From: Utricularia gibba
Taxonomy: Eukaryota > Streptophyta > Magnoliopsida > Lamiales > Lentibulariaceae
Assembly: GCA_002189035.1 (NCBI GenBank)
Contig: NEEC01000002.1
Coordinates: 5,541,001-5,605,000, forward strand
Length of the DNA stretch: 64,000 nt
Reading direction: 5' to 3'
Positions within the stretch are counted from its first letter, which is position 1, and every line of letters begins with the position of its first letter. Shown here one piece after another: positions 1,591 through 53,005 of the stretch. A program made the translations under genes and the position numbers. Below the pieces are notes generated by a model. The model saw nothing but the letters and a program-made list of their open reading frames with translations. It did no database searches and was not told the DNA's origin.

Positions 1591-3762
1591 AAATCTACAC
1601 GTGTAAGTAATCTTACTTTGCATATTTACTTCAATATATTTAAATTTTTTGTTTAATAACAATTATATTTTTGTGAAGCAAGTCGGACTTCAATGAGAAC
1701 AATAGAGTTGCTATAGCAGCACAAGTGTTGGAGCAAATACAGAACAAGAAGAAGAACAAGAATATGATACTTATATTTCATTTTCAGAATAAATATTAGT
1801 TCATTTTGTTTGTTATTTATTTTATAAAAAAATATGAATAATAATAACCTTTTATATTTAAATTTGAATTTTATAAATATATTTCTAATTTTAAATTAAT
1901 TTTGAATATAAAAAATTATAATAATTTATAAATTTATCTTTATTCGTGAACGTTTGTGAATGTGAATATTAAATAAACGAACATGAATAAAAATCTTGTT
2001 CGATTAACTTAAATAAATGAACATGAACATAGATGTTTGTGTTCGTTCGTTAGATATAACATCACTAGCCGCAATCAATATGGTCACAATCAAAGTATGT
2101 CTCTGTAGAATGATTGAGACAATTTTCACATTCTCATACTTAAACAAAGTTTCTAAAATCAATTGTCTTATACTTCTTAAATGTGGGTCTTTTTGATTGT
2201 GTGCGTGAGACTCTTTTTGGTTGCATAATTCTTGTTCTCTTTTATCTCGATTGATAACTTCATCACTTTCTGAGATAGAAGATAGTGTGAAGATGATGTG
2301 AAGATGGGTGGTGACATAAACAACATATTTAACGTAAATGGTTATTTTACTTTGAATCACTCAATATAAAATGTTAACATATAATATAATATAATTTAAA
2401 ATATTATATAATATAATTAGTAACCAAACTTTACATAAAAAAAGTAAATGTTTTAACATTTAAGAAAATAAATTTTTTTATCCACCTGTTATTAACTTTA
2501 TCCATTTTACCTTTAATCTCATCATTTGATAAAAAAAAGAATGAATAAAAAAAATTATAGTGGACTAGAAAACAATGACCATACGCACCTTTTTCTACCT
2601 TAGACATCATGTTTTGTTTAGCTATTTATATTGAAAATAAATAAGCTAAACATAAAGAATTGCATCAGATTCATATCATTTCCCAATCCTGCAAACAGAA
2701 AATAAATTGTGTTGAGTACAGTAAAATTCAAATAAATAAAGTTAAGTAATGTATTCTTGATCTACTTCTACTTGAGAATAATGTTCCTACATTTGAGTTT
2801 TTTAAAATGATACAAAAAATATATTTCTTTCTTCAATGTTTTGTGTTATTCAATTTCTTACTTCATCTCCAAATCTCCCCCTCCTTTTTTATTCTCTGTC
2901 CATGTGCTATTTTTTATTCTTCTCTCCTTTTTGATCCGTAGGCATCTATTTTGATATCTCTACTTCAAAATAGGCTTATTCTTTGTAAACCTGTTTAGAG
3001 TGTAACTTATCCAATGTAGTGTAATACTTAGACAAATGATGTTAGATTAAGATTTGAACTAAATCATGAATTTTATATCAATTTTAAACAAAAGATGAAA
3101 ATTGCATCAACATTCTCATAAAAATCAAAATTCATTCCAAAAGCCTAATTTTAATAGGATAACACATATATTTCTTTACCTAAGATCGATTGAACAATTA
3201 TAATTGTGTTCTGGAAAATTTTTTAATGCTATTTTTATTTCAATTTTTTATTGAAAATAATTTACACATAACACTTTCTATTTCTATTTCTATTTTTGAT
3301 AAAAAAATAACTTTTAGATATAATTAAAAATGAGTCAGAAGTATAAATAAGAAAACATTTCCGTCAACTTTTCATTTTTACTTTTGCCATCCAATTCTCG
3401 AAAATATTTCAGTTTCTGTAATTTTTCCAAAACATGTTATTTCTATTTCTAATTCTTATAAAAAATTTATATTTCTATTTTTTATTTTTTTCAAAAGTAA
3501 AAAACATCATTCAAAAATTTTCTAAAACACTCCTTATGTGTTATCAACCAATCATGCAACGCATGCATTCCTTATCAGTAGTTCCATGTGATCGTGGGAG
3601 TATCGGAGTAGACATCTTAGCAAAAAGTTCCTTTCCATGAACAATATGCTAACAAGCTTATCTATCCGCTCGTGAAGGGTAATAAGGTCAATCAGGACGT
3701 TTGGATAGATTCTCCCTAATAACAGGGGTGAAGTATTCTCTTCCACAATTAGGAAGGTCTAA
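1591..3762. other. AT-rich intergenic sequence, no gene recognised
   Basis: About 2.2 kb of AT-rich sequence follows the hAT relic. At 1940-2055 there are repeated GAACATGAA / TTCGTTCG-type words of the kind common near ends of decayed plant transposons. Short open frames on both strands show no recognisable protein motif and carry low-complexity residues. I see no promoter, RNA gene or conserved coding segment. Confidence 0.5.
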
Positions 3763-4158
3763 GGATATAGTCTGCATGACTTATTTTTCAACTTATAACT
3801 TTAAGTATAAGTTAAAATTACTTATTACAAAACCATCTGACTTTTACTTATTTCTAACTTCTACTCAAACTTATATTTAATTTCTACTTATTTTAAATTT
3901 ACCTACATTTCTACTTAAAACTCAACTTATTTAATAAGTTACATTTACCTTACTTATCAAAATAAGTCACCAACTTATTCCAACAAATGTCTTTGCTTCT
4001 AATAAATCAAATCTAAACAAAATCAAAATACATTTGTTTCTTCATAAATAAATAATAAGTTGCATAAACCACAACTAATTATTTGGGTTCTATTTATCCA
4101 ATAACTTCTACTTATGAATTAAGTAAAATTTACAAAATAAGTGGTGTAGACTATACCC
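3763..4158. mobile_element. Tourist-like MITE, copy A (PIF/Harbinger type)
   Basis: A 396-bp non-coding element begins GGATATAGTCTGCATGACTT and ends in its near-inverse (AAGTGGTGTAGACTATACCC), and is flanked on both sides by the trinucleotide TAA. Terminal inverted repeats of about 25 bp plus a TAA target duplication are characteristic of Tourist-like MITEs mobilised by PIF/Harbinger transposases. The interior is AT-rich with many TACTTATT words and no coding capacity. A second, larger member of the same family lies at 12051-12702, which supports a real element rather than a chance palindrome. Confidence 0.85.
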
Positions 4159-5741
4159 TAAGAGTTGGAAAAGTCAATCCTCTTACTCTTTTTATAACCA
4201 CACTATGCAAAACCCATTATGGACATGCAATGAATAAGAGAGATCTAGTAGAGTATGCACAAAAAATGGTAAAGTTCTTTGGTAAGATCTTGTATAAGGG
4301 GCGGGCAGAGCTGATGAGCGAGGTCCATTTCAGCAAAGAAGAAGCATGGGTGGGGCCTTCTCCTCGCATGCTTTTCATCACAAGTAGACAGGTTTGATGG
4401 GTGGGACGTGGGGAGGAACTCTAAGAGAAGAGAAGAGAACGTAAGTGACACGTGGATTCAGAAGCGGGAACCTAGTGAGTGCAATATGACTCTCATCTTT
4501 GTGCTTAACTTGCGAGTGGACAGAAGGGAGGAACAATCCATCAATCTCTTGTGAAAAGAGGAAACCCGGAACAACAAAAATACCTTGGACCACATTTTGG
4601 AAACTTACTTCTCTAAGAATACAAATTGGGTTTTCATCCCATCCATTCATGCATCCTCTCACAGGTCCGGTCCTAGAAGAAAGGCTTGCAAAACTTCCCC
4701 TCCAAATGCATGAGGGGTTTCTTTTCATTTATAGGACAAAGTCAAGGCATTAACTTCCAAATGCCCAAGGAATGTTTGCTAATCATGTGGAAAGCTTCGT
4801 CCCCTTCTTCTTATCCCTCCCTCTCTTCCACAAAGATGACAACCACTCGCAAAGTAGTTAAGGTTTGAGGCTTAATGGACTACCCTTGTGTGGTGCGGAT
4901 GGATACAAAAAAGGAATACAGCATGCCAGCCTATATAGATGATGATGACACACAGGATCGAATAGAGTGCATGTTATGCAAATCCAAGTCAAAAGGGAAC
5001 CGAGCAATGATTATGAAAATGCACTTCATTACAATCAATCATTCTTTTCCTCAAACAGAAAATAGAATAACAATCCATGATATAGGCAAAACTTAAGTCA
5101 TGATATACAATCAAGATAACCTATTCATCTTCTACGGTAATTAATATTTTCTATTTTTTTCTATACTCTTTCAATCAATTTAAAGTATACTACGTAAACA
5201 ACAAGATTAGAAACAAAATAATGCAGAATCACTCTTGATATTAATTGCTAGATTAAGAAGAGAAGAATTCTAGATTGAAGTGACTATTCTATTCTTCTTT
5301 TTCTTTTTTTTTTCTTTTTTGCCTTTTTTTTTGCTTTTTTTTTTTGAAATGGAGCCCCCGCTTTGGGGAAGATATATTTGGATTACGAAACTTTATTTGT
5401 GGTTTATAGTAAGATCATTACTATCCACAGCTTCGCCAAGCATATCTTACTTTTGCACTCCTCTTTTATTTTAATTTTTTTAAAGTTGAATGTCACTCAA
5501 TCTAGAATTAAAAAGATAAAAAAAGAACAATTAAAAATTCAAAAGTGATCCTAACATATATCTCATTTCTAATGCATGTTGTTATAGCTTGATATCCAAA
5601 GTAATGAAAAATCTAGAAGAATTACCAACGGTAAGATAGTCTAAGCACTTAATCATGATCAATTATAAGCTATGCCTAATCATGGATGTTATCTAAATTT
5701 GAAAAAGGACTCGAAGAATGTTGTAACCTATCAGCAGCCTT
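4159..5741. other. Unassigned sequence with a promoter-like, GC-richer stretch
   Basis: Between about 4240 and 4880 the base composition is visibly less AT-rich than its surroundings. It holds a G-box/ABRE-like CACGTGG at 4449-4455, a second ACGTGG at 4406-4411 and a TTTATAGG at about 4728, followed by an ATG at 4836 that opens only ten codons before a stop. This could be a promoter fragment captured or left by a lost gene, but I recognise no product. A T-rich tract lies at 5286-5346. The rest to 5741 is AT-rich; its right end probably holds the 3' UTR of the ZFWD gene. Confidence 0.3.
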
Positions 5742-7811
5742 CTACATCATCTTCCAGGCACAGACGTCTCCGGCTGCATCACCAGTGAAGAACAGCCCCA
5801 TCGGAGGTTCTGCGTGAATGGTGCGGACTTCTCCTCTAGAAAATATCCTGCCTCTCTCGATGAACCTGAGATGCAAACGCAGCTTTCCAATCACAACACA
5901 TAATGAAAAACACCATACGATGAGGGAGACGGATTCTCACGATGGCAGGTCGTATAAGCGAACGGTGTGGTCGCTGCATGAGCACAGCAAAACAGGCTTC
6001 CTCTCCGAATCATATACGCCGCAGAGAGCAAGCACGCCCTACAAAATTGATTTATGATTGATGGATTGTAAAGCCAGCCAACTAGTAGGAGGAGCTATTG
6101 CATGCACTTACATTGTCTTCCTGCTTCTCATGGAGGACCTCTATGATGCCCTTTTCGGTTTGTCCCCAGGCCTAAAGCACCGGAGGCCGACCGTTACAGT
6201 TGAAAACGTGCGAAATACAAAGATGGAGAGAGCTAAACCTTCACTGTCTTGTCCAAGGAAGCAGATAATAGAAAATATCGCCAGCATAATAAGGACGTCA
6301 CATCACCCTTGTGCCCACACAGTGTCTGCACACACTGCAAACTATCTCGATCCCATGCCTGAACATCAAAACCGAAAGTGAGGAGATTCAGCAAGCAAGG
6401 AGAGACCATTCAAAAACGGATACCTTTATCGTGCAGTCTTTTGATCCCGTATAAAGTCGCCTAAAAGCAGCAACAACAATTGAACATACTGCTCCAGTAT
6501 GCCCCTTCAAGACTGCAACTGGATCAGAGTCAATCTTCTCCGCGCTCCACTTCCACACATAAATGGAACCATCCTGGAACGGATTCAAAACTAAGAGATG
6601 CGAAAAGTTTATGCAAACATACTTCTAAGGCATGATTTCCGGGAGCCCATAACCATGCATAAGCAGCTAGTTTTCGGACACACAAAGCCACTATAAAAAC
6701 CAACACCATTCAGCCTACCTCCATTCCCACAAACAGCTTATCATCATCCGTCTCCATGCTAGATACTACGCAAGCATCGATGCACAAAGAAAACTCAAGT
6801 TGGTTTTGTGAATTCCATGCCTGTTGAACATCAAACACTTGATATAATATAAGACAAAACAAGTAGTGTACATACAAATAATGAGTTGTTTTCCCTCAAA
6901 AATATACCTTCACACCGTTCCGAAGCCCCACAAAGAGCATAGGGCCTTCAGTGACTACGCATCGCACTTCCACGCTTGTATCAATGCAACCAACACACTG
7001 TGCATACAATGAGTAGGAAGTTCAAATCAATATACAGTGCGTCATATTATCGTTCTGTCTCACTAAATTGACCCATGTTCTTACCTTTCCACTGTTGCAG
7101 TCCCAAACTCGAATACAATTATCAAAGCTCACAGAATACAACTTATCAGAGCCACATGGTAAGGCTATTCCTGAAACAGCCTGAACATTTTCCAGAAACT
7201 CTATTAATATGAAGAAATTTAAAAAAAAAGAGAGAAAAATTTATTCACAAGTTTACCTTTGAATGCCCTTCTAGTTTCGCCAACATCTGAAATCCAGAAC
7301 CACAGAACCAAGAGTGCAGATTCTTGCATTTCTCCCCATGGACGCAATTTCCAGTAACCCAGTATTCACATTGTTTTGGCTTGTCTGAAACAGCCATTTC
7401 AGAACAAGGATCTCTCTCCAGCACTGATTCATCTTCATGAGCATCAACTTTTTCAGGAACTGGGGCATTATTATGATCCTTGGGACCTTCAATACATTTA
7501 GTAGCTACTGGCGTGTCGTCCCCAACATTCATCTTCCTAACCACAGAAGATATTTGAGGAGCGCTATTCTTCTGAGGACTAGGAGATCTACGATAAACAA
7601 ATCTTCGGGCATTTGTTTTCTCAGGAACGCGACTCTCCAAAGTTTGCCTTGCACCAACTGAAGCATATAGTCTCCTCTTTTTCTGCAAATTCCCTGGTGC
7701 AGGGACGTTACCATGTATGAACCTACAGGGGTTCCTGTTGCACCCCCCTTTGAGCCAAAACACGCAAACTTCATTCTCATTCCGGGCCAATGCTCTCTTC
7801 AAAGTGGCCAT
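5742..7811 (-). CDS. Zinc finger CCCH / WD40-repeat protein (ZFWD family)
   Basis: Nine coding exons on the minus strand: 7811-7257, 7180-7085, 6997-6908, 6820-6719, 6573-6424, 6358-6239, 6171-6112, 6038-5941 and 5865-5742. They join in frame to 464 residues, close to the plant ZFWD length. Two CCCH fingers sit in exon 1: C-x7-C-x4-C-x3-H near residue 17 (CVFWLKGGC then CRFIH) and C-x7-C-x5-C-x3-H near residue 149 (CEYWVTGNC then CKNLH). A basic, Pro/Ser-rich linker separates them. WD40 blades follow from about residue 180 (IRVWD, YVWKW, VRLYD, CAWKMM at the end). The family combines likely RNA binding with a propeller scaffold. A 5' UTR intron (8392-7821) is inferred from splice motifs. The exact Arabidopsis orthologue is not decided. 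Confidence 0.95.
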
Positions 7812-8480
7812 CGCAGACTACTATACCAAGAAATAAGGGCAACATGTAAGTACAAACTCGAACACATCGATCCTCTGTAAACTCCACGAAGATCCATGGC
7901 GGCCAGATACGAAAAACAAATAATCCGGAAGTCTGCGAATCCGCTACGATCCCCTTGCAGCCTTGAATCGTGATCATTCCATTTGACTCCATTACAAGGA
8001 AATTCAAAATCTATCAACTAATCCGGAACCCACATTCTACCATGCGAAAAATCAAAAGAGAATGAGTATCAACCACGAATATTTCAACCCAGAAGCGCTT
8101 CCTCAACCAAGAAACACAGAAATCCGCAGAAGATCCTCAAGAACTGATAATGAATCCATTACAAAACTCAAGGATGAATCTAGACGGAAGCATCCCCTGC
8201 CATCCCGTGCGTCTGCGAATGATATCAACAAACATAAAACCCCACTCTACAATGAACTCCCAAAACCTTCACCTGGAAACCTCGCCGCAAGACTAAGAAA
8301 CTCGAATATCGATCAAGAATTTCCCAAAACAGAAAATTCAGGGATTTCAGGAGATAAAATGAAGAACAAGACAGAAACCGCAAATAACCCACCGTAGATC
8401 AACGCCAGAGGAGATTCACGAGAATGGAACAGAATTATCGGAATCGGGAAGAAAAGAAAAAGGATGAAGGAATCAAGAAT
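7812..8480 (-). other. ZFWD 5' UTR with probable leader intron
   Basis: Reading on the minus strand, a donor CTACG/GTGGGT ends a leader exon at 8393, and a pyrimidine-bearing acceptor ending TATAG at 7821 lies 10 bases before the start codon. Together they suggest a 572-bp leader intron, common in housekeeping plant genes. The 111-residue open frame on the plus strand inside it (8062-8397) looks non-coding. Splicing is inferred from motifs only. Confidence 0.55.
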
Positions 8481-8495
8481 GGGCGCGCGAATACG

Positions 8496-8503
8496 TATTT
8501 ATA
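8496..8503 (-). promoter_or_regulatory. TATA box of the ZFWD gene
   Basis: On the minus strand this reads TATAAATA. It lies about 100 bases upstream of the inferred leader-exon donor, so transcription would start near 8470. The 0.7 kb between here and the LORELEI-like start codon at 9202 is shared by two divergent genes. Confidence 0.6.
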
Positions 8504-9169
8504 GTTAGAGAGGTAGGCGTTAATTATGAAGTTGGTGCCATACTTTCTATAATTTACGTTTTAACCCCTATTTTCTCTGTGTATTCCTTAAAACCCCAAA
8601 ATATCTCGAAATCAGAGCGAGTTTCATTCCCTCGTAGTGCAATACAATATGCTGTTTTCTTGGGGAGGAAAGTGTCACAAAGTGTCACAAATCACAAGTT
8701 TCCAGATTCATATATGATTCAAATAATTTGGTGGGACGGATGCTCTGCTGTCTGCACTGATGAGGTGAAGGAGACGAATCAACAACAACGAGCAGACCAG
8801 TAGCTATACTCCTGCATCCACCTGGAATGTTGGTGATACTTTTTTCTACGGTTGATTTCAGAGCAGGCCCTTGCTTGGTGTGATACTTTCAAAATCTCAC
8901 AAAAGCCAATGGGTGGACGGCGGGGCGGGCTGTTTGGGAGTTGATCTGGTCCTCGGGCGAGGAGCTAGTTTTCAGTATTCCTGTTCTTTTCGTGGCGCCA
9001 TTGTCCAAAGTAGCTAATACCCAGCTGTGCCCCAATTCACTGTCTGATTGGGATGTGCAACGAAAACAAATACCGATGTGTCTGGCGGGTAATTCTCAAT
9101 AAATTGTTGGAATTGGAGCCTCGGCCCCAGATCTACCCTATTTCCATACCCATTGGGGTTTTGGCTTTG

Positions 9170-13589: not shown

Positions 13590-14150
13590 TTCAATTCAAA
13601 AGAAAAGTATTCTATATTCATGTTGAGGATGAAAATCGTTGTTCGTGATGGGACCAATTTACGAGTTAAAAGGTGCGGCCAGGAAATTCCGCACCTTATT
13701 ATGTTTTTCACGATTATGTTTAGTTTGATCAGCGGGAGAAGGGATAGGCGGAGATTTTTTACGTGGAAATCGTCGGAAGGCGGAAAAACCACAGAGTTGT
13801 CAGAGTTTGACGGAGAAGATTTATACTAGACGGAGGTAGTGAATAAGATGATACAAGTTGGAGAGTTCTTAGAGTCCCACCCTCTTTTCGTTATAGTTAC
13901 TTCAATTTATAGAAGAGATCGATCTGGCCGAATCCCCACTTCTACGGGTGTCGACTACTTTTATGCCTGCTGTGCGATCTCGCTTTTCAGATATCGATCA
14001 TCTATTCTGCTGTAATTCGGCTGCTTTTCAGATTGTGTCATATAACCATATCTGTCAAGATATCTATCTGTCGACTAGCATTATTCACTCAAAATCCATT
14101 TTGACAGCTTTTTAGAAGCCTATTAACCTTGACCCACTTTATCTCCCATC
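13590..14150 (+). repeat. Dispersed repeat, copy 1 (related to 48130-48600)
   Basis: Blocks such as TACGTGGAAATCGTCGGAAGG, GGCGGAAAAACCACAGAG, GACGGAGAAGATTT, TCGGCTGCTTTTCAGA and the trailing CTGTCAAGATAT find ordered counterparts at 48230-48600. This copy lies between two genes and has no coding potential that I recognise. Its ends are not defined. It may be part of an LTR or a non-autonomous element. Confidence 0.6.
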
Positions 14151-27769: not shown

Positions 27770-29083
27770 TTATGTGTTGTTTATGTTAATTTCATGTTTT
27801 TGTTGAAAATTAAACTAAATCCTCTGATTTAATCCATCTTTTATTACTGATGTATAATTAAGTTTAGCAGGAGTATTAGTAGTAAAATTAGATTGAGAGA
27901 TGTATGGATTAAGTTAAAGGGCATAACATTCGAAGGGAAACAAAAAAACACTGTTATGTAGCCTACAGTCTGCAAGTTCAAGCCGAGAGCATTACTAGTG
28001 TTAGGAATAGTGCAATAGAATAAATAACGGGAAATCTTTTTGGAGGAGAGAAAAACCCCAATGTAGAGAGCTTCATTAGAGACATCTTTAAGAACATGAA
28101 CACCTATCCATAAAAGAGGAAGAAGGAGACTCACGACGAAAACTACCATCCTCAAGAACACCATCAAGATCCAGTTCAACACTATTATTTTTGGTCATAA
28201 ACAGTGGCAAATGAGAATTAGAATAATCTTTTACTTTATTTTCGTTTGCTGAATATTTTTAGTTTCTATGACTAACTTACTCATAATGTTTCTGTTACTT
28301 TGGCTATTTAATCTTAATGATATTATGTTTTATTTTTCAAGTATGAGTGATTAGATCTTATGGATGCCTTCGGCTAAAACATGGTGCTGTGGAGCTAGGG
28401 TTTATAACCCAATTCACCGTTATTTCTTAACTTTTGTTTCTATTATTCCATGGATAGAACTAAAGAGGGAAATGAACACCTTTGCAACTTAGATCTTTGA
28501 TTTAGAGTTAAACTAACAAATCAAAGTGGAGACAGTAGGTATTAATATATAATAGAACCAATAGAAATGAGTAAACTTAGTTCCATATACCTTGCATGTG
28601 GGTAAACCTAATTATGACGTTGGTGATGATATTTGGGACTATATTAGTCAAGAACATGATGAATAACATGTGTAAACTTTGGTTGTTTGAAATTGTGAGT
28701 ATAAGAACGAAGTAAATTAAATTAGACATTTTAGTACCACATCAACTGTATATTCTTAAGGCATCTTAATATTATTTTGTATTATAACCAATATCTATTA
28801 TTTTCAGCATTGAGACTTGATTTTGTTTATTGAACTTGTCTACCATTGTTAGTTTGGTCTTAGACTAATAATAGCGTTTATTATGAATTTTGTATCTCTA
28901 AAACACTTTGCAAACACTAGTTCCTTGTGATCGACCCAAATCTACTATACAAGTTTTTATAAATTTGTATTTTGTGTAAATTATGGATTATAAATTTATT
29001 TGATATGAGGATTTCATTTCTTGCAATATTGAAGAAGACACTGTACATGGAAGACAATGATTTTAAGACATTTTCGTTTATCA
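27770..29083 (+). mobile_element. Diverged LTR copy, same family as the solo LTR at 49530-50951
   Basis: Ordered blocks shared with the intact solo LTR include TAAATCCTCTGATTTAATCC (with TAAATCAAAGGATTTAGCCC), CAGTGGCAAATGAGAA, TTGCAACTTAGATCTTTGATT, TAGGTTGGTGATGATAT-like and TTCCTTGTGATCGACCC, and the right end TCGTTTATCA. It lacks internal coding sequence and has drifted considerably in AT content. The left end is uncertain. The frame at 27843-28182 minus is a chance reading of this LTR. Confidence 0.65.
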
Positions 29084-32000
29084 TCAATGTTGGAATATGG
29101 AAGAAGACTTCAATTAAATAAATACTATAATTTCATAGCTTGTACATAAGTAGGATTCATTCTAAATGGAAAGCTCACACTGTACATGATTTATGCCTTA
29201 CGACATATAGAAAAATCTACTATGATGATTAAAAAAGCTTCTTGTACAAATGAAAAAAGTTGAATATATGCAGAAGACAATGATGGAAGAAAAATAAGGA
29301 AAGTAAATTTACTTTGGATTGCAAATTAAAACAAATCTCGAACTCAATAGATGAAATTTTTTTCTTTCATTTTTCTCACTAGAACTTTGTATTACTTTTG
29401 TTATTCTTTTTCACCATAGGGAGGGAAATGACTTGTATTTATCTATTTTCATTTCATTTTGTCATCATCATTCATTGGTAAACTTTTTTAATTTATGTGA
29501 ATTGATGAAGTTTCTTTGAATATTTTGAGCACAACTCTCGGTTATTCATTGATTTTCCTCCGAATTTCATATATTACCATGTATAATGTTATAATCTTTT
29601 TTCAATAGCTCTTAATTATAATATATGAGTAACCAAACACTCTTCATAGATTTTGATATAAATCAAGGTAAAGAGCATCATCTTTAACTCTATTTATTTG
29701 AGGTAGATGGCGAATTGTTTGTGATTAAAATACTTCATTAATAAATGGGTAGTGATCTCATACCCATACCATTGGTCATTGGCAACAATTTGGACGCACG
29801 TACAGAATTTGGTTTTAAAGGCAATCGATGACAATCTTCTTGTCATCTTAATCGTCCAACAGGAAATCATATAAAGCTATTCTCGAGACTCTTTTTGAAA
29901 GTGTAAAGGAGAGTAGATTATTTATTGCGATTATAACCAATTATTTGAAAGAAATCACTAAAACCCGAAACAATTATAGACAAAGAAAAAATGAATTCTC
30001 TTTCATAATAACTATTTCCTTTAATCAAAATCTATTAATTACATTTTATTTTGTATTCTAATATCATAAGCTCCTGTTAGAGATTGTTTGGTTGACTAGT
30101 GTAACCCAATTTCTATTAAAATTTTATGTGTTTCTTATGTTTCATTTTCTCTTCAATGATAGTTTACTACTAGAGTTTGTCTCCACATCATTGGGGCTAT
30201 GATCATCGATAGGAACCATTCAAAAATGGATTCATGTACACCAAGTCATGAGTAAATTTGGTGAGGTATTCACTATCTCAGTGTTGGAGACTGATACTTG
30301 TTCCATAACATCTCTATATATATACATGATCTTTCACCTGTTGTTCTATCCTTTTCAAATATTTAACACCAATCTTGATAGAAAGAGAACACGTTATCCC
30401 GCATAGAACAACTAGGTTTTGCCTTAACCAAGAATACACAATACAAAAACCTAATTTGATCATTCTCGAATATTTTTTAAATTATATACCAATTACTACT
30501 CACAATAAGAATGTAACAAGGGACCACAATCCAATAATGCAATTTCTACTAAAAAGATGAAATTATCAAAATGGTCGAGAGGGAATAGAAATAAGAGGTG
30601 AATGCATGCATGTAATCCTTATACACAAATGGAATTTAACTTTGATAATTTCCTCCCACGACACTCATCAATAGCATCTATCATAATAGTAGTTGAATTT
30701 TATCCATTACCGCTTCCACCCAAAATATCCAATACAGAATAATATCTTTTTCCATCCTTGAAACTTCGAGCTCATTTGAGAATTTGCATATATAGTCATC
30801 ATTGGAAACAATTGTTGCATACCATTATCTATGTTCCAGCCATTTTTGGTACATTTCTTGAAGACAATAATAAAATTCCTCTCTTCAACTACCAATCATA
30901 AACGTTTGAAAGCCTCTTCCTCCATTGGCCCTAAGCATTGCATCGCTTAAACTCCCTAATTGCAAACCCTAGGAAAATAAAGAAAAAAATGAGAAGTAAA
31001 GGATAAATTGGTTTTTCAAATGTAAAACCAATGAATATCCTAGCCCAAAACTTACAAAGCAAATATATAAAGTCAAAACTCTCACCTACAACCAATTACA
31101 TTTTAATCAATAACCATGTGTTTAACATCATAGTAATCTAAACAAGGAAAAAAAACCTTCCCATCAACCAAACAGCTTATTACAAACATATGATAATTTA
31201 TAATAGATTAGCATAAAAACTCTTTTCACAAAATTTAATTCTCCTATGATCGACATTTATACTACACTTAATTGTGTTTTACATTTTTCATAATTAGAAT
31301 TTATTGAGAAACAACACATAATAGTTAAACACGTAGGATTATAATATTCTATTAAAAACATATCGTGGATAAACACATTTTTTAAACCAACATTTTAAAG
31401 ACGTAATTAATCTTCTTTAAGATGCATAAGTCCATGTGTTTTAGGTATTGCAAACTCCAATTTATAGTACTTGAAAGATATTGTTTTTATAAAAGTTGGG
31501 CAAAGTAGACATCTTTTTCCCATATCTAGATGGGTGTCTTGACTACTCTAGATTAGTCTTGTGAGATGTAAATCCATGTGTTTTAGATACCATGAATTCC
31601 ATTTTGTGGTGTCTCAAAGATATAGTTATTTTGTTTTGTAAATGAGTTATTATGGTGAAAATAGTTATATGAAAGCTAATATTGAAAAACTATCTACCAA
31701 TATTTAATACAACAATGACAAAAAAGACTCTCAATTATCCTCAAGAAAATGTAATGTAAATATATCGACAAATAACTAACTTACCAAAATAACGATTATA
31801 TCTCATATGAACAAAAAATAAAACCAATGTTATAGATATTATTTACATGCATCTGCCTAATGTAACACTCAATTACTTATTTAATTAAGTCTAGTCTATC
31901 AATTAATTCTACAAGAGGCCAATGACACCTCAATAGGATTGCCGCATCGCGAGGGTTTAGAAATTATAATGATTGTTATAGTTAAATTTCCATAATATTT

Positions 32001-42254: not shown

Positions 42255-42520
42255 AATACCACAAATTATATATTTTGTTTTATGAAATTACATATTTTTT
42301 GTATATTTACATGATACCTTAATTTTTATTTTTCATTTATAAAATACCACATTTTAATTAAATTATAATTACTATTTAAATTCTAACTATTATATAATAA
42401 TAATAACCTACTTTAAATTAATATTGAATTCCTAATTTAGCATAATTATAAAATATTTATTAATTCACTTTTTTAAAAAAATTATTGAATTGACTACCTA
42501 ATTTAACAAGCAGGGCAGAG
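42255..42520 (+). repeat. Left inverted repeat of the Mutator-like block
   Basis: This 266-bp segment is matched on the opposite strand by 52438-52700. The alignment is continuous by eye with few differences: AATACCACAAATTATATATT, ATTTATAAAATACCACATTT, TTCTAACTATTATATAATAA, ACTTTAAATTAATATTGAAT and ATTTAACAAGCAGGGC all have inverted counterparts. It is best read as a terminal or subterminal inverted repeat of the MULE that lies between the two copies; two unrelated MITEs in opposite orientation remain possible. Confidence 0.75.
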
Positions 42521-43810
42521 GGTCTTTTTGAGAACTAATCATCCTCTCATTGACACATTTGAAAAATAACCATCCTTTTTTTCTTATTTAAAAACTAACC
42601 ATACTTTTTAATTTATTAAATATTAATCATTATATATTCATTTTTTAATTAAATAAATAACAATGCATGTATTTTTTTTAATTAATTTCTACTTACATAT
42701 ATAAATAGTATAATATAATTATTTTTAATTTTTAAAATATAAATGATTATATTTTTAACATTTATTCAATGTTCAATACATCTATGAGGAATAAATTTAT
42801 TTTGTATAAAAAAATAAAAATATGTATTTATTAATTAGTATAATATAATAAATAAAGAATAAGTGTTAAATTTATACTTTGGAGTAGTTTTTATTTAGTA
42901 AAAAACATTGATTTCATATTTCATTTGAAAATTAGTTTAGTTATGTTAGATTGCTTTATTTTAAATTACCCTATCTTTTCAGTTTTTACAATATGTTATT
43001 ATATAATTAATTTAAATATTATTTTTTAATATAATAAGATATTTTTATACCAACATATTTTCATTATCAAAAAATCGTTTTCTTTTATTAATAATCTTCT
43101 GCTCAGTATATCTATTATATATGCAACATATAAAATCAAATGCTTTTTAAAAAATTCGAAATAACACAAATTTTAAAAAAAAAATTTTATTTACAATTTG
43201 ACTTGAATGGTTTTGTAAAATGAATAAATAAAATATAAAAAGTTATATGCAATATATTTAAAAACTAAATACTTTCATTTAATTCATAAGTTTTATTACT
43301 TCATAACAAAAATGATTATTGTTATTGGTAAATAAAAATATATAACATATCTAAAAATATCTACAATTATGATTATCATTTACAATATATAATTTTCATA
43401 TAATAAATTAAATTTTAATGAACATAAGCATGAATGCTTATAAAGAAAAAATAATTTATTATAAAATTACAATATTTCGAGTTAAAATATGATAAATAAA
43501 ATATATTATCAATTTTTCTTAAACATGTGATTTCATTTGTTTCTCATAATCAATATTAAATATGAGTAATCTATTTTTTTACTTAAATTTTTAGTAAAAA
43601 TAGATAATTTGATGTAACAATTTTTTTATAATCATAAATAAATTAAAATAATGAAAATAAAATTAATTCAAGTATGAAAAATGATTAAAACATAAAGTAT
43701 AAATGATGTAATACGAATAATAGTATTCAAAAAATCAAAATGGATGTCTAGTTTTTAAAAAATAGCAGCAATTAATACATATAACGCTCAATAATGCTTT
43801 TATAGATTTA
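42521..43810. other. AT-rich sequence inside the Mutator-like block
   Basis: About 1.3 kb of very AT-rich sequence with no recognised coding segment. It lies between the left inverted repeat and the stop codon of the FCP1-like gene. Confidence 0.4.
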
Positions 43811-44900
43811 TCAATGTGGATCAGTCTCATCAATTGGCTTCTGACTGAACCAAAATTCGATGACGTAACTTCCCACATCATCCACATCTAGACACCCTGA
43901 AATAACAAATGAAATATATTGTAGAGGTCAAGAAAATTGTTCATACCTTCAGTGCAATTCCATGAGATGGGAAATATTGCATTGTTAACCTAGAAAAATT
44001 GCATTAAAGAGATTTATAGAATAAAATTAAGAATAAAGAAATTTAATAAACAATTAAAAGTCACTAACTGGGTTTAAAATTGATTTATACGGAGAGTCAT
44101 CCAATAGCAATTTGTTGGTAGAGTTGTATTTGACTTCAAATACTTCATTTTCCCAAATATACCGTAGAGGTTTAAACTTCATGGTATCAAATGCATTATC
44201 GATCCACCTCTCCGAAGTGATTATGCAATTGTTTTGATCCCATAAAAACACCAAATTCTCCTTGATATTATTTCTAAAAATGTACTCTACCAAAGCTTAA
44301 CTATATCGCTATCATCAAAAATACTATTAGTAATTGAACAAAAATAAATCAATTTAATTGCATAATACAATATTTAAAAAATGACTTACATTCCCCTAGA
44401 TGACCATATTCCTACATCAAAATTTGTCATACACCACTCTAAAAAAGATCTAGAATATGGTTTTAAATACATTGAAAACAAAAATGGTTAATCTTATATG
44501 TAATTTCAAAAAATGAAACAAATAAATATATTAACCTCCTTGTCCCTTAATCATAATTGGAGGTACATTATTTCTATAATATATGACATCGGCTAGTACC
44601 CCACAAATGTCTAAAACAAGTAACTTCCGGAACATCATGGAAAAATAGCTAGGTTGCGCAATCAAGCTTCCAGTTCTTTCTTTATAATTACAAAGAGTAC
44701 TAGTCAATTTCTCTATCTCTGATTGTGGCTCCAATAACTCCAATTGTACCCTTTGTAACTACAAATAAAATAGTAAATATGAGAAGAAAATATGTAATTT
44801 ATATAAATCATTTAAAAATAAGTAACATACATACCATTTCAACTAAAGTGTCAACATGTGTGAAAGATGAAGTATCATAAGGCTATTGAACGTCTCATGG
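43811..44900 (-). pseudogene. FCP1/HAD-like phosphatase-type gene, probably broken
   Basis: Minus-strand segments read as a plant HAD-superfamily protein with an FCP1-homology domain: KLLVLDICGVLADV (44640-44600; the usual second motif-I Asp is absent), SFLEWCMTNFDVGIWSSRG (about 44435-44380), LVFLWDQNNC and NKLLLDDSPYKSILNP (44250-44069). The last three exons splice cleanly: to 44069, 43989-43947, and 43896-43811 ending SQKPIDETDPH and TGA. The first exon seems to run 44758-44536. Near 44296 one base appears to be missing: VEYIFRNN cannot be joined in frame to the preceding GIWSS block through any acceptor I see. It lies within a Mutator-like block, so it may be captured host sequence. Confidence 0.65.
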
Positions 44901-45199
44901 CACATTTTCGATATTCAGAATTTCTAGAGATTGTTATTGTCTAGATGCATTCCTTTTAGTGCCATACCAAATACGTCTAGTACTTCGAGTTTTCATAAAT
45001 GGTGGCTAAACTTCTGACCATTTCAATTGTTTACTGTGAATCAAGATAATCAAAGAAACTCTTGACGCTTCATCTAATTCATTGACACCTTCATAAAAAT
45101 AATCATGGTAATTTAACTAATATAAATCAATCAAATTATAAACAATTAACCGAAAATTAAAAAATATACTAAAATAGATTAAATTATAACACTACTATA

Positions 45200-45700
45200 A
45201 TTAAAACATATCTTCAGCAATTCCAACCGAATCGAGGTCTCCAATTATTCCTGTACTAATTCGAATTTGTGTACTCATTCGTGGTATCACCCATATGAAA
45301 CTCGACCACCATGCACCATAATATATTTGTAATCCTTCAACAATAATAGAAAAATCTTGCTTGCAAGTGATAGAAAACCGGTTTGAATTTGTAACTCGCT
45401 TGCAAAGAATTAGACTGAAGAATGCACTTACTGAACACGGAAATCCATATGACTCACAAATATAACCGAAGCCCAATATATTTGCAATTGATGGTGGTGT
45501 CGCATATGCCAAGTGGAAGCTTCAATTTTCGTAGCACTTTTACCACGAAAGGATGAATCGGAAATCATAGACCACATCGAAAATGTTCTGTACAAACAAA
45601 AAATCCTCCATTTCCGATTCTTTCAAGAGCTAAATCCGTGATTTCTTCACCATCAATTTTATCCACTGTTGCGTATCGTTTTCTCAACAAATTTTAAATA
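45200..45700 (-). pseudogene. Fragment of a plant transposon gag-like domain (Transposase_28 type)
   Basis: Across two frames on the minus strand the sequence reads GFFVCTEHFRCGL, then FPIHPFVVKVLRKLKLPLG, then IANILGFGYICESYGFPCSV, SAFFSLILCKRV and WWSSFIWV. The order of a hydrophobic FPLHPF block, a short loop, GF..LCE..G and FF is that of the putative gypsy-type transposon domain found in plant retroelement and transposon polyproteins. Frame changes break it. The assignment comes from motif order only. Confidence 0.45.
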
Positions 45701-46965
45701 TTTAAAACGTAAAACATTAAAAAGTGTAGTACGAGTAATGATCACAGGGAGTTGTTTTCGTGAAAAGTGTTTTGTAAGAAACTTTTAGAAAATGTCACGG
45801 TTTTGTAAAAGGGGGTTTGTGAAGTACATAAATAAAAGTTTCAATCTAAGTAATGGCCTGGACTACGGGACACAGTTACTGGGAATAAGATTTTATCTCC
45901 TTCCTTTGTCTATCCTCGCCTCGGTTTTCTTTGATTTCTTCCGAATAGCTGGTTATAGGAGAAAGGAATAGCTTACTCTTCCTTACACTCTGATTGACAA
46001 GGAGGCACGGGAATAGCCTCATTTGACTCCCCTTTGGACTATTAGGAAGACAAGAGGATTGCCTTCGATTGCCTTCATAACCGAATTGCGCGCGTGTGCC
46101 CAGCTGTTGCCAATGGCCAATGGCAAGTAAGAGGTCACAACCTGTTCACTGTCGCGGTACCTAGGCCACAAACAATCCGCTACTTCCCTCGAACCGATAG
46201 GGTTGGAGTTGGTGCTTTTCACTTTGATCTTCACCAAAATCCGCAGGGAGTGGCCTGCTACTCACGGACCTTGAGTAAGAGTCGTTACACAAAGATTGCA
46301 ACAATATGCGTGGAAGTATGCAGAATCCGAATTGAATTCAGCGAAGAACCGAGTATATTACTCAAGACTTGGAAGTAAATTTCATCTACTCCCAGAAACT
46401 AAAGAGTTTTAGCCACAAAGGCCCGTGGAAAAAGAAACGTAAATGAAAGCTAAGTGTTCTTCCTCCTTGAAGAGGAGGAGAAACCTAAAAGTTCTAAGTA
46501 CAAGAGAAATTGTTCAAAAGTCCGAAACTAAGTAATCCAAATGGCTTTTATATGACTCCCCACGTGCAAAAACTCCTTTGTGTCCCCTTCCCATCATTCC
46601 TTCTATCTTGCATGCACCAGCAGCTTTCCTTTGCGTGCAAGTTAGCGTCCAATTATTGCTGCAGACTCTGACATGCCGTAAGTAAGGGGCCTTGACCAGT
46701 TTCAGTCTTCCGCCCACAATTGTTCCAAGTTGCGTACAAGGCACGAAAAGTTAGACTCTGACCACCTGAAATACTCCTGCAACACTCAACAACAGTCTCC
46801 TGACATGTCTCGGTCAAAGTGTGAGAAAAAAGACATAAAATATATACAAAATAGGAAAATAGAAATTTTCCAATAAAAATGAAATAATTAATAATAAGAC
46901 TCCAAATTGGGCGACTTAGCACTAGATTAACACTTAATAATAGCTAATAAATAACTAGAAAAAAT
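45701..46965. other. Unassigned, less AT-rich sequence
   Basis: From about 45850 to 46800 the composition rises to near-balanced G+C, unlike both flanks. No protein motif is recognised on either strand; frames of 70-90 codons (46019-46237 minus, 46094-46378 plus) overlap each other and look accidental. It could be organelle-derived DNA or the interior of another transposon. A database comparison would settle this. Confidence 0.3.
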
Positions 46966-46972
46966 GATTTTT

Positions 46973-47320
46973 AGGCACTGCAACCACGAGATGCAATGCT
47001 TGGAAATCATATGTAACCAAATGAAAAAAATATTTCCAGACATTGCATCGCGTTCTATCAATGTCTGGAAACTTCAAGGCACTGCAACCATGCGATGCAG
47101 TGCCTGGAAATAATATGTAACCAAATTAAAAAAAAAAATTTCCAGACATTGCATCGTGTGCTAGCAGTGTACAGAATTTTCAGACACTAATAATAAACAA
47201 AGTAGTGCCTAGAATGACATTTTTTTTGCAATTTTTGGAATGACATTATTTTTAATTAATTAAACATGTATTACTAATGTCTACTTTCCAAGCACTGTTA
47301 ACACACGAAGCAGTGCTGGG
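46973..47320. repeat. String of short hairpin repeats (CACTG...CAGTG theme)
   Basis: Six consecutive inverted repeats with 9-13 base spacers: 46973-47002 (imperfect), 47036-47068 (CCAGACATTG / CAATGTCTGG, perfect), 47078-47104 (GGCACTGCA / TGCAGTGCC, perfect), 47142-47172 (degraded), 47181-47212 (CAGACACTA / TAGTGCCTAG, near) and 47288-47320 (CCAAGCACTG / CAGTGCTGGG, near). The first four form two tandem units of about 105 bases that share ATATGTAACCAAAT between hairpins. Non-coding. Confidence 0.85.
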
Positions 47321-48129
47321 AATCCAGAAACGCCTTTGTGTGTTAGCCGTGTGTGGATTTCAGGTAATACTCACTTGTCTTCAGTATAGGATTTAAATGG
47401 AATTGGTGACAACCCTGTGGAATAAAATATTAATTAGATTGAAAATTCCTAAATAATAGTAATAACTAATTTTATAGAGCTTACCATTTGCGTATGAGAA
47501 CAAAGATATCTCTCTATCAATCAAATACCGCAATCGCACGTTTGATCTCGAACATTGACTCTATATATTCGCATGGAATGATGTCCCCAAGATTGTACCT
47601 CACATGTTTGCATGTTCACATTATATGATATGCATTTAAACATTGTTAATTAATTCGATGTTTCTTGATACTTCACGTGGATTTTGTGTCCCAAGGGAAC
47701 ACCTTTTTTCTGCCTTGATAGTGCCTTTGATCTATAACGTCACGTGTCTTTTCGAAGGTCACCTACAAAGTTATGGTAACATCAAAATTTATTCAATAAT
47801 GAAACTAAATTGCAACTCGTATAACTTTTGCAAGTGCGGTTGGAGGTAAACGTCTTGCTGATCGTAAAACGTTATTCATACACTCAACGTGATTTATAGT
47901 CATGAGTGTGTGTCTATATTTTAAGAAAACATGTTAGCTAAAGTAAGTAAAACAAACAACAAAAACGTTTTATCGATGTCCACCATCATAAAGCAATATC
48001 CACTTTTCTTTGGGTATTCTTTCTAAATAGTGACAGACATCAATCGAATGTCTTGCTATCTCGCTCATAGCCATATTGAAATCAGTTTCGGTTCTAGCAT
48101 AGGAAACTCTTTTGATCTATTGTTCCAAA

Positions 48130-48600
48130 CCTTTTGATTTCGAATGAACATGCTTGTTATGGGTGAAAATTGGTTGAGTGGACCGGGTTGATTTTTCGGT
48201 TATGGAGGTGACTGGAAAGGCCACTTTCGTATATTTTTTTCGTGATCTGTTTGGTTTGACTGGGTGAAATGAATCCAGGCCGATATTTCTAACGTGGAAA
48301 CCGTCGTAAGACGGAAAAATCACGGAGCTATTGGAGCTCGCCGGAGAAGATTTTCTTACTAGCGGGATGTGGTGATGGAAAGTACAAATGGGAGGCTTTG
48401 GATCCAACCCCTTCTCCGTTATAATTTCTTCTACTTATGGGGGAGACCGGCCCGACTGAATCATGAGTTTTGTAGATGTCGGCTACCTTTCTGCACTTGT
48501 GCTATAATCTTGCTTTTCAGACAATCGCTGTCCATTCTGCCATGACTCAGTTACTCTTCAGACTGAGCCATACTGCCCTTGTCAGATCTTCTGACATATC
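48130..48600 (+). repeat. Dispersed repeat, copy 2, inserted in the MULE relic
   Basis: Related to 13590-14150 by ordered blocks (TAACGTGGAAACCGTCG, AGACGGAAAAATCACGGAG, GCCGGAGAAGATTTTC, GCTTTTCAGACA, CTTGTCAGATCTTCTGACAT). The transposase reading frame stops before it at about 48610 and resumes after it at about 48110, so it looks like an insertion, with loss of some transposase sequence. Confidence 0.6.
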
Positions 48601-49529
48601 ATCCGATTTATATCCTATCAATGCGACATACAATTTCTTTTGATATGGAAGTTGCACCATCGATGTATGCCATAGGGAGGGCTAAAGTGCTTGTAATTAT
48701 CATAAGCGCCAATAATCCTATAAGCACGATCAGAGATAATACATACATTTTTCCTTTGATAAATAAAATGATTGGCGAGATTACAAAAGAAAAATTCTCA
48801 ATCCTCAGGTTATTCTCCATATGCGAATGCATAGGTGACGGGAAAGACACAGTTACTAGCATCAATAGCAACACAAACCAACAACTTGTAGTTGTATCAT
48901 CCGTATAGGTGAGTCGCATCAACACAAAGCACGGATCGATAATATTGAAATCCTTCAATAGCAAACCTGAAAGCCCAAAACACATTTCGGAACACCTTCT
49001 TCCCATCTAGATCACGACTATGATGCCATATTACAATTGTGCCTAAGTTTTGAGTGCGAAGCTCTCTTAGATATCGCGGTAGCTCAATAGTAGAAGTTTC
49101 CCATGTTCCATAACGAATCTCAAAGGCTCTGGTTATATAAGCCCATGCCTATCAATAGGATATCTCATAATGCCATTACTGCTTTACATAGGCTTGCACA
49201 AACTTAACATCTATCTTTTCATTCAGAAGTGCAACTAAACGTGGTGCAATGAACTTGATTGTAAGATTAACATTGGATGTCACAAGATCAACTGTGACAT
49301 CGCATGTATGCGGTTCTACAAGCTTCGAGATCTTTCAAGTGTTAGATCGTGTCTGAAATCCTGCCCAGAGATAGAATGGATAATTAGAAGCTTTTTCTTT
49401 CATCTGACGACAAATGCAAGCATATGTCCTTTTATCACTTGTCACCATGCAGGTCTCTCGATGTGCTATAGAAGTATTGTAGAGAGCAACTGCATCAATA
49501 ATTGTTTGTTTATCTAAAAAAAAGCATCC

Positions 49530-50951
49530 TGATAACACACAAATTTTAATGTTTTAGGATAAGAAAAATCATAGATTTTAATTATGTTTAAGTGTTAATT
49601 TTATAGTTTTAAGTATTTTTATTTGATTAGGGAAAATATGATTTTTGGTGTAATTAGTGGGCTAAATCAAAGGATTTAGCCCACCCCATGTCTAACCCGA
49701 TTTTGGAGTCTAGCAGCAGCAGCCCAAGAATCAAGGAAAAATCTGGATTTCATGCAAGTCACTAGGGTGCAAGGGGCAATGAGTACACTGTCACGGCGAA
49801 AGTCTGCAAATCAGGGCCTGGAGCAGTAGATCTGTCAGAGAATGTACTTGCCTTAGGAAGTCGGAGGCAAGAGAAAGCTGAGAAGAGAGAATCGCAAAAA
49901 AGAAAAGGGAGTTCACCCCAGAATTTTCAAGGGGGGCAAACACACGAGGGGGTTTCTCCCCCCACCCCAACTGAAACACGAAGAAGGAGGAAGAAATGCG
50001 ATTTTTCTGGAGAAGAACCACCAGCTTGAAGGAAGAAGATTAAGACCCAGTTCAGCGCCACTGTTCCGGCCTGTGAACAGTGGCAGATGGAATCTAGAAA
50101 CTTTGCTGTCTTATTTTCATTTGCTTATGTTCTTAGCTTCTGCACTAAACTTCTGCACAATGTTCTCAACATTTTCGTTATTTTATGTTAATGCCATTAC
50201 ATTTTACCTTCAAAGCATGACTAACTAAACCCTAGGAGTGCCTTAAGGTGAAGCATGGTGGTGTGGGTCTAGGAGTCTTAGTAAAATTAACCTTAGTTTC
50301 TTAGCTCTTGTTTTTATCAAACCATGGGTAGACCTAATGAGGGGAACAAGTAGCTTTACAACTTAGATGCTTGATTTAGAGGTAGACCAACAAATCAAGA
50401 CGGGAGCAGTAGGTATTAGTCCGGGGTAGAACCAGTAGAACCGGGTAGATTTAGTTCTATATGCTTTGCATGCGGGTAGACCTAATTGTAAGGTTGGTGA
50501 TGATATGGAGGACTAACTTAGCCGAAAATATTGTGAATGACCCGGGTAGACTTAGGTTATTTGAAGTTGTGAGTATAGGAATATGGTAGATTAAATTAGA
50601 AATTTTGGCATCACATCACCTGTAGATCCTTAAGGCACGTTAGTATTATTCTGAGACAAAACCAGTACCTGTTACTTTAGCGTTAAGACCTTATATTGCT
50701 TACCGATCTTGTTTACCGATCTTGTTTACCGAACTTGTTTACCACTGTTGATCCGAGCTTAGACTAAGACTTACCTACTTTGAGTTCTGTATTTGCTGAA
50801 ATACAAGGCAAGCACAAGCTCCTTGTGATCGACCCCGAATTCCACTGTGCATTTTCAGATTAATATGTATTTTGTGAGGATTAGAGATTATAAATTTATT
50901 TGATAACGAATTTTCTATTTTTGCAACGACACTAGGAATTTCCGTTTATCA
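49530..50951 (+). mobile_element. Solo LTR (1422 bp) with 5-bp target duplication
   Basis: The element starts TGATAACACACAAATTTT and ends TTCCGTTTATCA, so the terminal hexamers TGATAA/TTATCA are inverted and show the canonical TG...CA ends. It is flanked on both sides by CATCC (49525-49529 and 50952-50956), a perfect target duplication. No internal coding, primer-binding site or second LTR is attached, so it is what remains after recombination between the LTRs. It contains TTCCTTGTGATCGACCC-type sequence common in plant gypsy LTRs; the superfamily is not proven. It interrupts the MULE transposase relic. Confidence 0.9.
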
Positions 50952-52437
50952 CATCCCTTGTCGTAATTGATTGGATCCCTCAACATAGAAATCATTGTAA
51001 ACAGATATATCAATATCATCAACATATAAGAAGTCCATTCAATCCGGTGATTTAATTTGAGTTTCAAAACAAGTTTATGATAGATGATCAGAAATCACCA
51101 GAATTTCATTATCCTCAGAGTCATTCATTGATATCTGAGGGTTCATTATCAGCATACATCGCCCCCTCTAAATCAGACTTTTCAATAGGGGCCGTTGAGG
51201 TCTCATAAGTTTGATTTACGTGACCTCTGTTATCATATATCTCATCTGAAACATATTCATGATCACCTAAAATAAAAGATTAAAATACAAAATATTGAAT
51301 AGAAAATAGTAATGTTAAAAAATAGAAAGAGATTAAAGAATTTAATCAACACAAGAATGTGAAGATGGAATTCTAACCATATCGAGACGAAAACTCCCAA
51401 AAAGGATCAAATGGCGCATCCAAGTCTTGTATTGGATAACTGTTATTGTTGCACTCCTTACTAGTTTGTTCGTTTAATTTGAACCTTCAATCTGCAATTG
51501 TAAAAAATTTCATGTCATTTTATATCACAACTTATGATCGAAAACCTTAAAATTTCTCTAAATTTCACATGGAGCATGACTACTAGAAGTCCACTCCCAT
51601 CGTGGGTTTGTTTTGATGAACAATTCAATTCCATACTCCGAATTGGTAGGTGATAAAATATAATGTAATATGTCAGTACTTGAAATCTCCATAAAATTTG
51701 TATTTCTGGATTCCGCATCATGGAATTTTGTATTTAAGGTAAATTGAAAATACAAGGGTGATATTTGGAGGGTCTCATCTATAATTTTAATAAGTTTATC
51801 AAGAATAGATGTGCATTTCACTTTGATGATTTTCACAGGGTCTCTATCGTATGCAATGTATCCAGATGCATTTTGAATTAGATTTCCTCCGTAGAACACT
51901 TTGACAAGAACCTTACTCATTATCCTTTAATGAAAAAAAAATTAGAAGAGAAATTAATGAAAAAAATTACTTAAAAGTGAAATACAATGCCTATTATATG
52001 AGATTGTCAAATTTCACTTAATGATAGCACCACTTGTAGTCGAGAAGTTGAGAAAAAAACTGATACGATTCATACTAAAGAAGTCTTTTAACATAAAAGA
52101 TGAAAACAAATATTTTATATTGTGTGACTGTGATTTGTAAAAGATAGTATGAAAATAAATAAGTGAAGGAAGATAGTGGGAACGGATATCATAAAAATCA
52201 AATGAATAATATAAATTTCAATTTGTATTTTAAATGTTTTTAAACTTTTTTTGTTATGTAATATTTAAATTTTTTCAAGTCTTATATTTTAAAGATATTA
52301 CTTTAACATTCATTATTGTAAATTTAAAAATTAAAAAATTTATATACAAAAACCATATTAATAAAATGAAATAACTGATGATGTCATGTATGCAACATCC
52401 ATAGGTGGGCGCTACTTACCATGTTCATAATGCCCAA

Positions 52438-53005
52438 CTCTGGCATTGCTTGTTAAAATAAACAATCAATCCAATAATTTTTTTTAAAAAAAGTGAATTA
52501 ATAGATATTTTATAATTCTATTAAATTAAAAATTCAATATTAATTTAAAGTATGCTTTTATTATTATATAATAGTTAGAATTTAAATAATAATTAGAATT
52601 TAATTAAAATGTGGTATTTTATAAATGAAAATTAGAGCATTATGTAAATATAAAAAAAATTAAGGATTTTCATAAAACAAAATATATAATTTGTGGTATT
52701 AAACTTATTTTCGTATTATTGTACAAAGTAATTTATAGATTTATGTCATTTTACAAAAAAAAATAAAAAATAAGTAATTTACAAATGAAAAATTATAACT
52801 CATATAAAATACCAATAAAATAAAAATTTACAGTATTTTTTTAATCTCTATCATTTGATACATATATCTACCAAATTTAGTCAAAAAGTTCCGGTAGATT
52901 GCAAATGAAAAATTGTAATCCATATAAGATATCAATAAAATAAAAAGTTACGGTATTTTGTCAACTTATTTCCTCTTACACACGTATTTAGCAAATTTGG
53001 CCATG
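52438..53005 (-). repeat. Right inverted repeat of the Mutator-like block, with outer extension
   Basis: Positions 52438-52700 are the inverse of 42255-42520. Beyond 52700 the right side continues for about 300 bases in two related subunits (AAATACCGTAACTTTTTATT and AATACTGTAAATTTTTATTT on the minus strand, each followed by CAATTTTTCATTTG-like words). The outermost bases on the minus strand begin GGCCAAATTTGC, a plausible MULE end. No equivalent outer part is seen on the left, so the left end is truncated or diverged. Confidence 0.65.

Follow-up and report, generated by a model that had tools for sequence, protein, structure and literature searches.

Positions 42255 to 53001 of the window hold a defunct Mutator-like element (MULE) with two genes, a MULE transposase and an accessory gene. 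The window is a stretch of 64,000 nucleotides of Utricularia gibba DNA (C451:5541001-5605000), and all genome searches covered the 100-Mb assembly of 516 contigs. The accessory gene encodes two domains, a Transposase_28 domain (T28, PF04195) followed by a linker and then an FCP1/NIF-like domain, and we refer to it as T28-FCP1. Relatives of T28-FCP1 recur as fixed parts of other transposons in this genome, namely a second MULE family, PIF/Harbinger elements and at least one hAT element.

The two-gene element in the window

A comparison within the window aligned inverted repeats at 42255-42512 and 52447-52700 with 86.6% identity over ~258-261 columns (E ~1e-84). Repeats of about 265 bp had been claimed in an earlier note at 42255-42520 and 52438-52700, and they are indeed present. 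Aligned copies revealed that both are the inner segment of a terminal inverted repeat of ~550 bp that contains tandem units of ~120 bp. The right terminal inverted repeat spans 52447-53001 on the minus strand. Its inner part (52447-52700) matches the left repeat, its outer part contains the ~120-bp units, two of which lie at 52779-52878 and 52899-52998, and its terminus GGCCAAATTTG is found near 53001. Homology within the family begins at 52997-53003 and the flank outside differs between copies, which places the right end of the element at ~53001, a few bases from the end at 53005 given previously. Only the inner portion of the left repeat remains (42255-42512, plus strand). Other copies extend ~300 bp further outward, and this outer part is missing from the window copy. 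Since the left end is lost, a target duplication of the 8-11 bp expected of a MULE is unreadable there. The window element has the long terminal inverted repeats of a MULE, which are longer in intact copies.

The transposase relic that had been noted between the repeats consists of two pieces on the minus strand. The N-terminal exon (51561-51920) shares 63-84% amino acid identity with the equivalent place in three other copies (L011, L012 and L037), and the decayed DNA-binding and catalytic core (48633-49529) shares 80% with the copy on contig C375. The MULE transposase domain PF10551 scored above the Pfam cut-off at 48633-48932 despite the two TGA and one TAA stop codons in that stretch. Two later insertions were also recognized, neither of which is present in L011. 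One lies within the transposase gene (49531-50955) and is a dispersed repeat with 70% identity to 28141-29005; the parts that flank it are contiguous in L011. The other (~48153-48621) is a dispersed repeat with 69% identity to 13700-14042. The repeat that interrupts the transposase gene has copies elsewhere in the window (28141-29005 and 29479-30019) and inside the element at 45868-46411 and 50016-50905, in both orientations. The transposase and the accessory gene are separated by an array of ~100-bp tandem or inverted repeats with the motif TTTCCAGGCACTGCATCGC at 46973-47170.

The accessory gene lies on the minus strand as well. Its first part is a T28-like domain at 45279-45675, which matched a T28 protein of the second MULE family with a tblastn E-value of 4e-14. 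This is followed by FCP1-like exons at 44525-44635, with motif I LLVLDICGVLADV where other copies have DING or DVNG; at 44389-44472, with EWCMTNFDVGIWSSR; at 44066-44293, with motif IV LLLDDSPYKS and no stop; and at 43814-43903, the last exon. These exons account for the FCP1-homology gene that had been described inside the repeats in the same orientation as the transposase. The earlier reading of an FCP1/HAD-like gene as MULE cargo is supported. The cargo is more than FCP1, as it includes a T28 domain, and it is not a one-off capture.

The FCP1/NIF domain is recognizable by sequence. Pfam NIF (PF03031) scored above its cut-off in a Harbinger-borne copy, L051 (E 5.4e-8), and slightly under it in the window copy (E=0.0016), while T28 scored above its cut-off in L047, L050 and L051. 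The architecture is best seen in the intact copy L050, where T28, a coiled-coil-like linker and the FCP1/NIF-like domain are encoded by five exons whose joins were set by hand. T28 lies upstream of FCP1 on the same strand and within 3 kb at no fewer than 51 of the 117 listed FCP1 loci, with a median spacing of 1,021 bp. As controls among the matches listed, the reverse order was found six times and the opposite strand once. A second and more uniform set of T28 matches has no FCP1 nearby. These matches cover profile positions 5-67 and lie in open frames of up to 425 amino acids (for example C328:348352-348537, C402:1790372-1790560 and C4:2215268-2215453).

Active HAD phosphatases have a second Asp in motif I (D-x-D). 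T28-FCP1 resembles the FCP1/SCP phosphatases (NIF, PF03031) in its NIF domain, in the first Asp of motif I and in the DDSP of motif IV, which are retained in most copies. It differs from them in being fused to T28 and in lacking the D-x-D pattern: motif I reads DVN or DIN in most copies and DIC in the window copy, so that the second Asp is replaced by Asn, or by Cys in the window. The D-x-N motif of most copies argues for weak hydrolysis or none; the FCP1-like domain may instead bind a phosphorylated protein, perhaps as its reader or decoy. A sequence search of the PDB found no relative.

Further copies and a second MULE family

When the left repeat was searched against the genome, 21 places matched, several of them as inverted pairs. 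Three of these loci belong to the window family, here class a, and hold parts of both genes inside the shared ends. L037 (C142) carries the transposase and the FCP1-like gene in the same orientation, and L012 (C255) carries the start of the transposase together with the T28 and FCP1 parts. L011 (C375) carries the transposase and a distant FCP1-like gene (47% amino acid identity) in the opposite orientation. L037 and L011 retain only the FCP1 exons of T28-FCP1. Both are flanked by perfect target duplications of 9-10 bp, GAAAAAATTG at L037 (9-bp form GAAAAAATT) and ATTAATTTT / GATTAATTTT at L011. Perfect duplications of this length were also found at L015 and L016, and none at L012 and L013; the chance of a common 9-mer in such flanks is ~0.5% each. 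The flanks of L011, L012 and L037 differ outside the repeats, showing that these are separate insertions. The check that had been proposed, a search for copies with the same ends and both genes, thus returned three at unrelated sites, two of them with perfect duplications, and these copies support the earlier reading of an FCP1/HAD-like gene carried by a MULE. We regard the MULE anatomy, with T28-FCP1 as a shared accessory gene, as very likely.

Three short MITE-like elements of 1.4-2.1 kb (L013, L015 and L016, on C413, C255 and C213) have terminal repeats like those of the window MULE. At L011 and L014 (C375 and C255), one terminal-repeat family is associated with two T28-FCP1 lineages, which face opposite ways with respect to the transposase. 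Two lineages in one repeat family suggest that accessory genes have been exchanged between elements.

A second MULE family, class b, has the transposase and T28-FCP1 head to head (L044-L049). Identity between its transposase and the class a transposase is only about one third. The element at L045 is bounded at 372-8995 (8.6 kb), with a target duplication that matches at nine of ten positions at its ends (AGTACTGTGC/AGTAGTGTGC). When the repeat on the T28-FCP1 side was searched in the genome, 16 class b element loci were found. Counted from coordinates, T28 and/or FCP1 occupies the expected position next to one repeat in at least 12 of these 16.

Carriers among PIF/Harbinger and hAT elements

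L051 and L052 have a 6-kb unit in common, with DDE_Tnp_4 first, T28-FCP1 next and, on the opposite strand, a Myb_DNA-bind_3 gene last. The unit at L051 is bounded by the terminal inverted repeat (TIR) GGGYGCGTTTGGTT (GGGCGCGTTTGGTT and GGGTGCGTTTGGTT) with a TAA target site duplication on both sides. It thus combines the DDE_Tnp_4 transposase, Myb-like gene, 3-bp duplication and short TIR of a PIF/Harbinger element. Both loci have the transposase and Myb-like gene pair known from PIF/Harbinger elements, but with T28-FCP1 lying in between as an additional, third gene. At least 35 T28/FCP1 loci have a DDE_Tnp_4 match no more than 4 kb away, and the transposase is upstream on the same strand in 33 of the 35. 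Random placement gave ~4 such neighbourhoods on average and a maximum of 10 in 300 trials.

The loci L050 and L054 form one hAT unit of 5,651 bp (C402:1730682-1736332) with an intact T28-FCP1 inside. Its TIR, TAGAG[G/C]TGGGCACGG, matches at 14 of 15 positions (inverted ends TAGAGGTGGGCACGG and TAGAGCTGGGCACGG), and its 8-bp target duplication ATTGAATC/ATCGAATC at seven of eight, with one mismatch. The hAT transposase is on the strand opposite T28-FCP1, with PF14372 and PF05699 above cut-off. The unit therefore has the transposase, short TIR and 8-bp duplication of a hAT element. A MULE transposase found at a distance of 7.5 kb from L050 was dismissed as part of the host element, since it is separated from L050 by a host-like gene and the real carrier is the hAT. 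At least 28 T28/FCP1 loci are within 4 kb of a hAT match, versus 4 expected. L055 is a hAT locus by content, and no terminal repeat with duplication was found within the 8.4 kb examined there.

Both domains occur together at 52 of the loci among the matches listed. DNA-transposon transposases adjoin 41 of them (19 Harbinger, 14 hAT and 8 MULE) and none was found near the remaining 11; no locus is near two kinds. Copia reverse transcriptase, a control repeat of comparable number among the matches listed, was near 3 of 210 T28/FCP1 loci in that set, versus 4.2 expected. A genome search for CACTA (PF02992) gave no matches, and its control likewise gave none. These genome-wide counts are lower bounds among the matches listed (150 scored per family). 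Most co-location counts are distances between matches, which are weaker than bounded elements; both ends and a duplication enclose T28-FCP1 or FCP1 in five elements only (L037, L011, L045, L051 and L050).

Two further candidates were rejected as cases of cargo. At L038 (C255:1662000-1671999) the MULE repeats enclose the transposase only. This MULE (3883-8969, repeats with 81% identity over 91 bp) is a nested insertion in a T28-FCP1 gene, where it separates T28 from FCP1. At L040 the repeats (425/4162) also enclose only the transposase, and the gene lies just outside.

Origin and possible role of the accessory gene

In class a, the FCP1 part has dN/dS values of 0.23-0.66, resembling those of the transposase. 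Most pairs of class b copies have dN/dS near 1, which indicates recent copies without visible selection, as expected if copies decay once they have inserted. When the hAT, Harbinger and class b genes are compared with one another, synonymous sites are close to saturated and dN is ~0.5, which suggests that the protein has been conserved over a long time. In an unrooted tree T28-FCP1 copies cluster mostly by carrier type, and a single clade of MULE-borne copies is neither supported nor rejected. From this tree we claim several carriers but no direction of transfer.

These values bear on the possibility that a large host family of T28-FCP1 genes was captured independently by different transposons, in the manner of Pack-MULEs, and is carried as passengers without a role. 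The genome has more than 100 FCP1-like loci, class a carries two FCP1 lineages in opposite orientations (L011 versus L037), and plant DNA transposons are known gene capturers (Pack-TYPE elements; PMC8903248). Like T28-FCP1 carriers, Pack-MULE and Pack-TYPE elements are transposons with coding sequence besides a transposase. They are, however, non-autonomous and hold varying gene fragments, whereas here the carrier has its own transposase, decayed in the window copy, and the same whole, intron-bearing two-domain gene recurs. Order and orientation are moreover fixed per transposon family over many copies, as in 33 of 35 Harbinger cases, and the dN/dS values below 1 in class a and the strong constraint between groups speak against passengers. 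We consider such capture unlikely.

It is far less probable still that T28-FCP1 is a mobile unit of its own or a favoured insertion target, with the observed neighbourhoods arising from nested insertion in repeat-rich regions. Nesting is plain at L038, where a MULE interrupts a T28-FCP1 gene, and at L040 the gene is just beyond the repeats. Conversely, terminal repeats and target duplications surround both genes in L037, L011, L045, L051 and L050 (FCP1 exons only in L037 and L011), spacing and orientation are almost constant, no locus adjoins two transposase kinds and Copia is without association. Finally, the idea that the window repeats are two independent MITEs around an ordinary host gene, a doubt already raised in the earlier note, has next to no probability: short MITE-like relatives of the repeat family do exist separately (L013, L015 and L016), but the window interior is collinear with L012 (83%), and also with L037/L011, on the left side from the repeat through FCP1 and on the right side from the repeat across the transposase start, which excludes two stray MITEs.

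The best overall explanation, which we think probable, is that the window holds a two-gene MULE with T28-FCP1 as its accessory gene, that relatives of this gene are fixed in other DNA transposons and that its role is on the host side. Since elements with unrelated transposases all keep T28-FCP1, its protein probably acts on the host side, and it would stand outside strand transfer. FCP1/SCP proteins act on the C-terminal domain (CTD) of RNA polymerase II. Most plausibly, T28-FCP1 would keep its element expressed through phosphorylation of the RNA polymerase II CTD or through an effect on silencing, as VANC does in VANDAL MULEs. We tentatively propose that this accessory gene is functional, has passed between MULE, PIF/Harbinger and hAT elements and could help any carrier, for instance by countering silencing through CTD phosphorylation. 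The anti-silencing or transcription role itself is possible but rather more doubtful.

Accessory genes in MULEs are of a known kind, and one gene common to three superfamilies is, to our knowledge, seemingly undescribed. The accessory genes of plant DNA transposons that we know of are few and each bound to a lineage: MURB, VANB/VANC and Ulp1 in MULEs, and the Myb-like gene in Harbingers. The closest parallels are the Arabidopsis VANDAL elements with VANC (and VANB), which are likewise MULEs with an extra gene besides the transposase. VANDALs are non-TIR MULEs, whereas the window family has terminal inverted repeats. We know of no FCP1/NIF or T28 domain in VANC, nor of any report of it in hAT or Harbinger elements. 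The VANC gene acts in trans on related elements and leads to a loss of methylation (summarized in PMC13317346). A host-derived enzyme-like domain is also a regular extra gene of the KIU (Kaonashi)/Ulp1 MULEs of Arabidopsis, melon, rice and grapevine (PMC13317346). There it is an Ulp1 protease, while here it is an FCP1/NIF-like domain fused to T28, and Ulp1 carriage has been described in MULEs only, whereas T28-FCP1 is also found in Harbinger and hAT elements. In the literature searched, with Repbase and most subscription journals outside the search, we found no mention of MULEs, Harbingers or hATs with FCP1 or Transposase_28 as cargo. Ulp1 and VANC are both named in a 2026 review on how plant transposons capture genes, from which the word phosphatase is absent (PMC13317346).

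If this explanation is true, the retention of one gene by three superfamilies would indicate that all of them face the same obstacle, with host silencing or transcription as the most plausible one, and T28-FCP1 would be a concrete protein with which to probe it. Many plant genes annotated as 'FCP1-like' or as 'gypsy-type transposon (Transposase_28)' would then be genes of DNA transposons.
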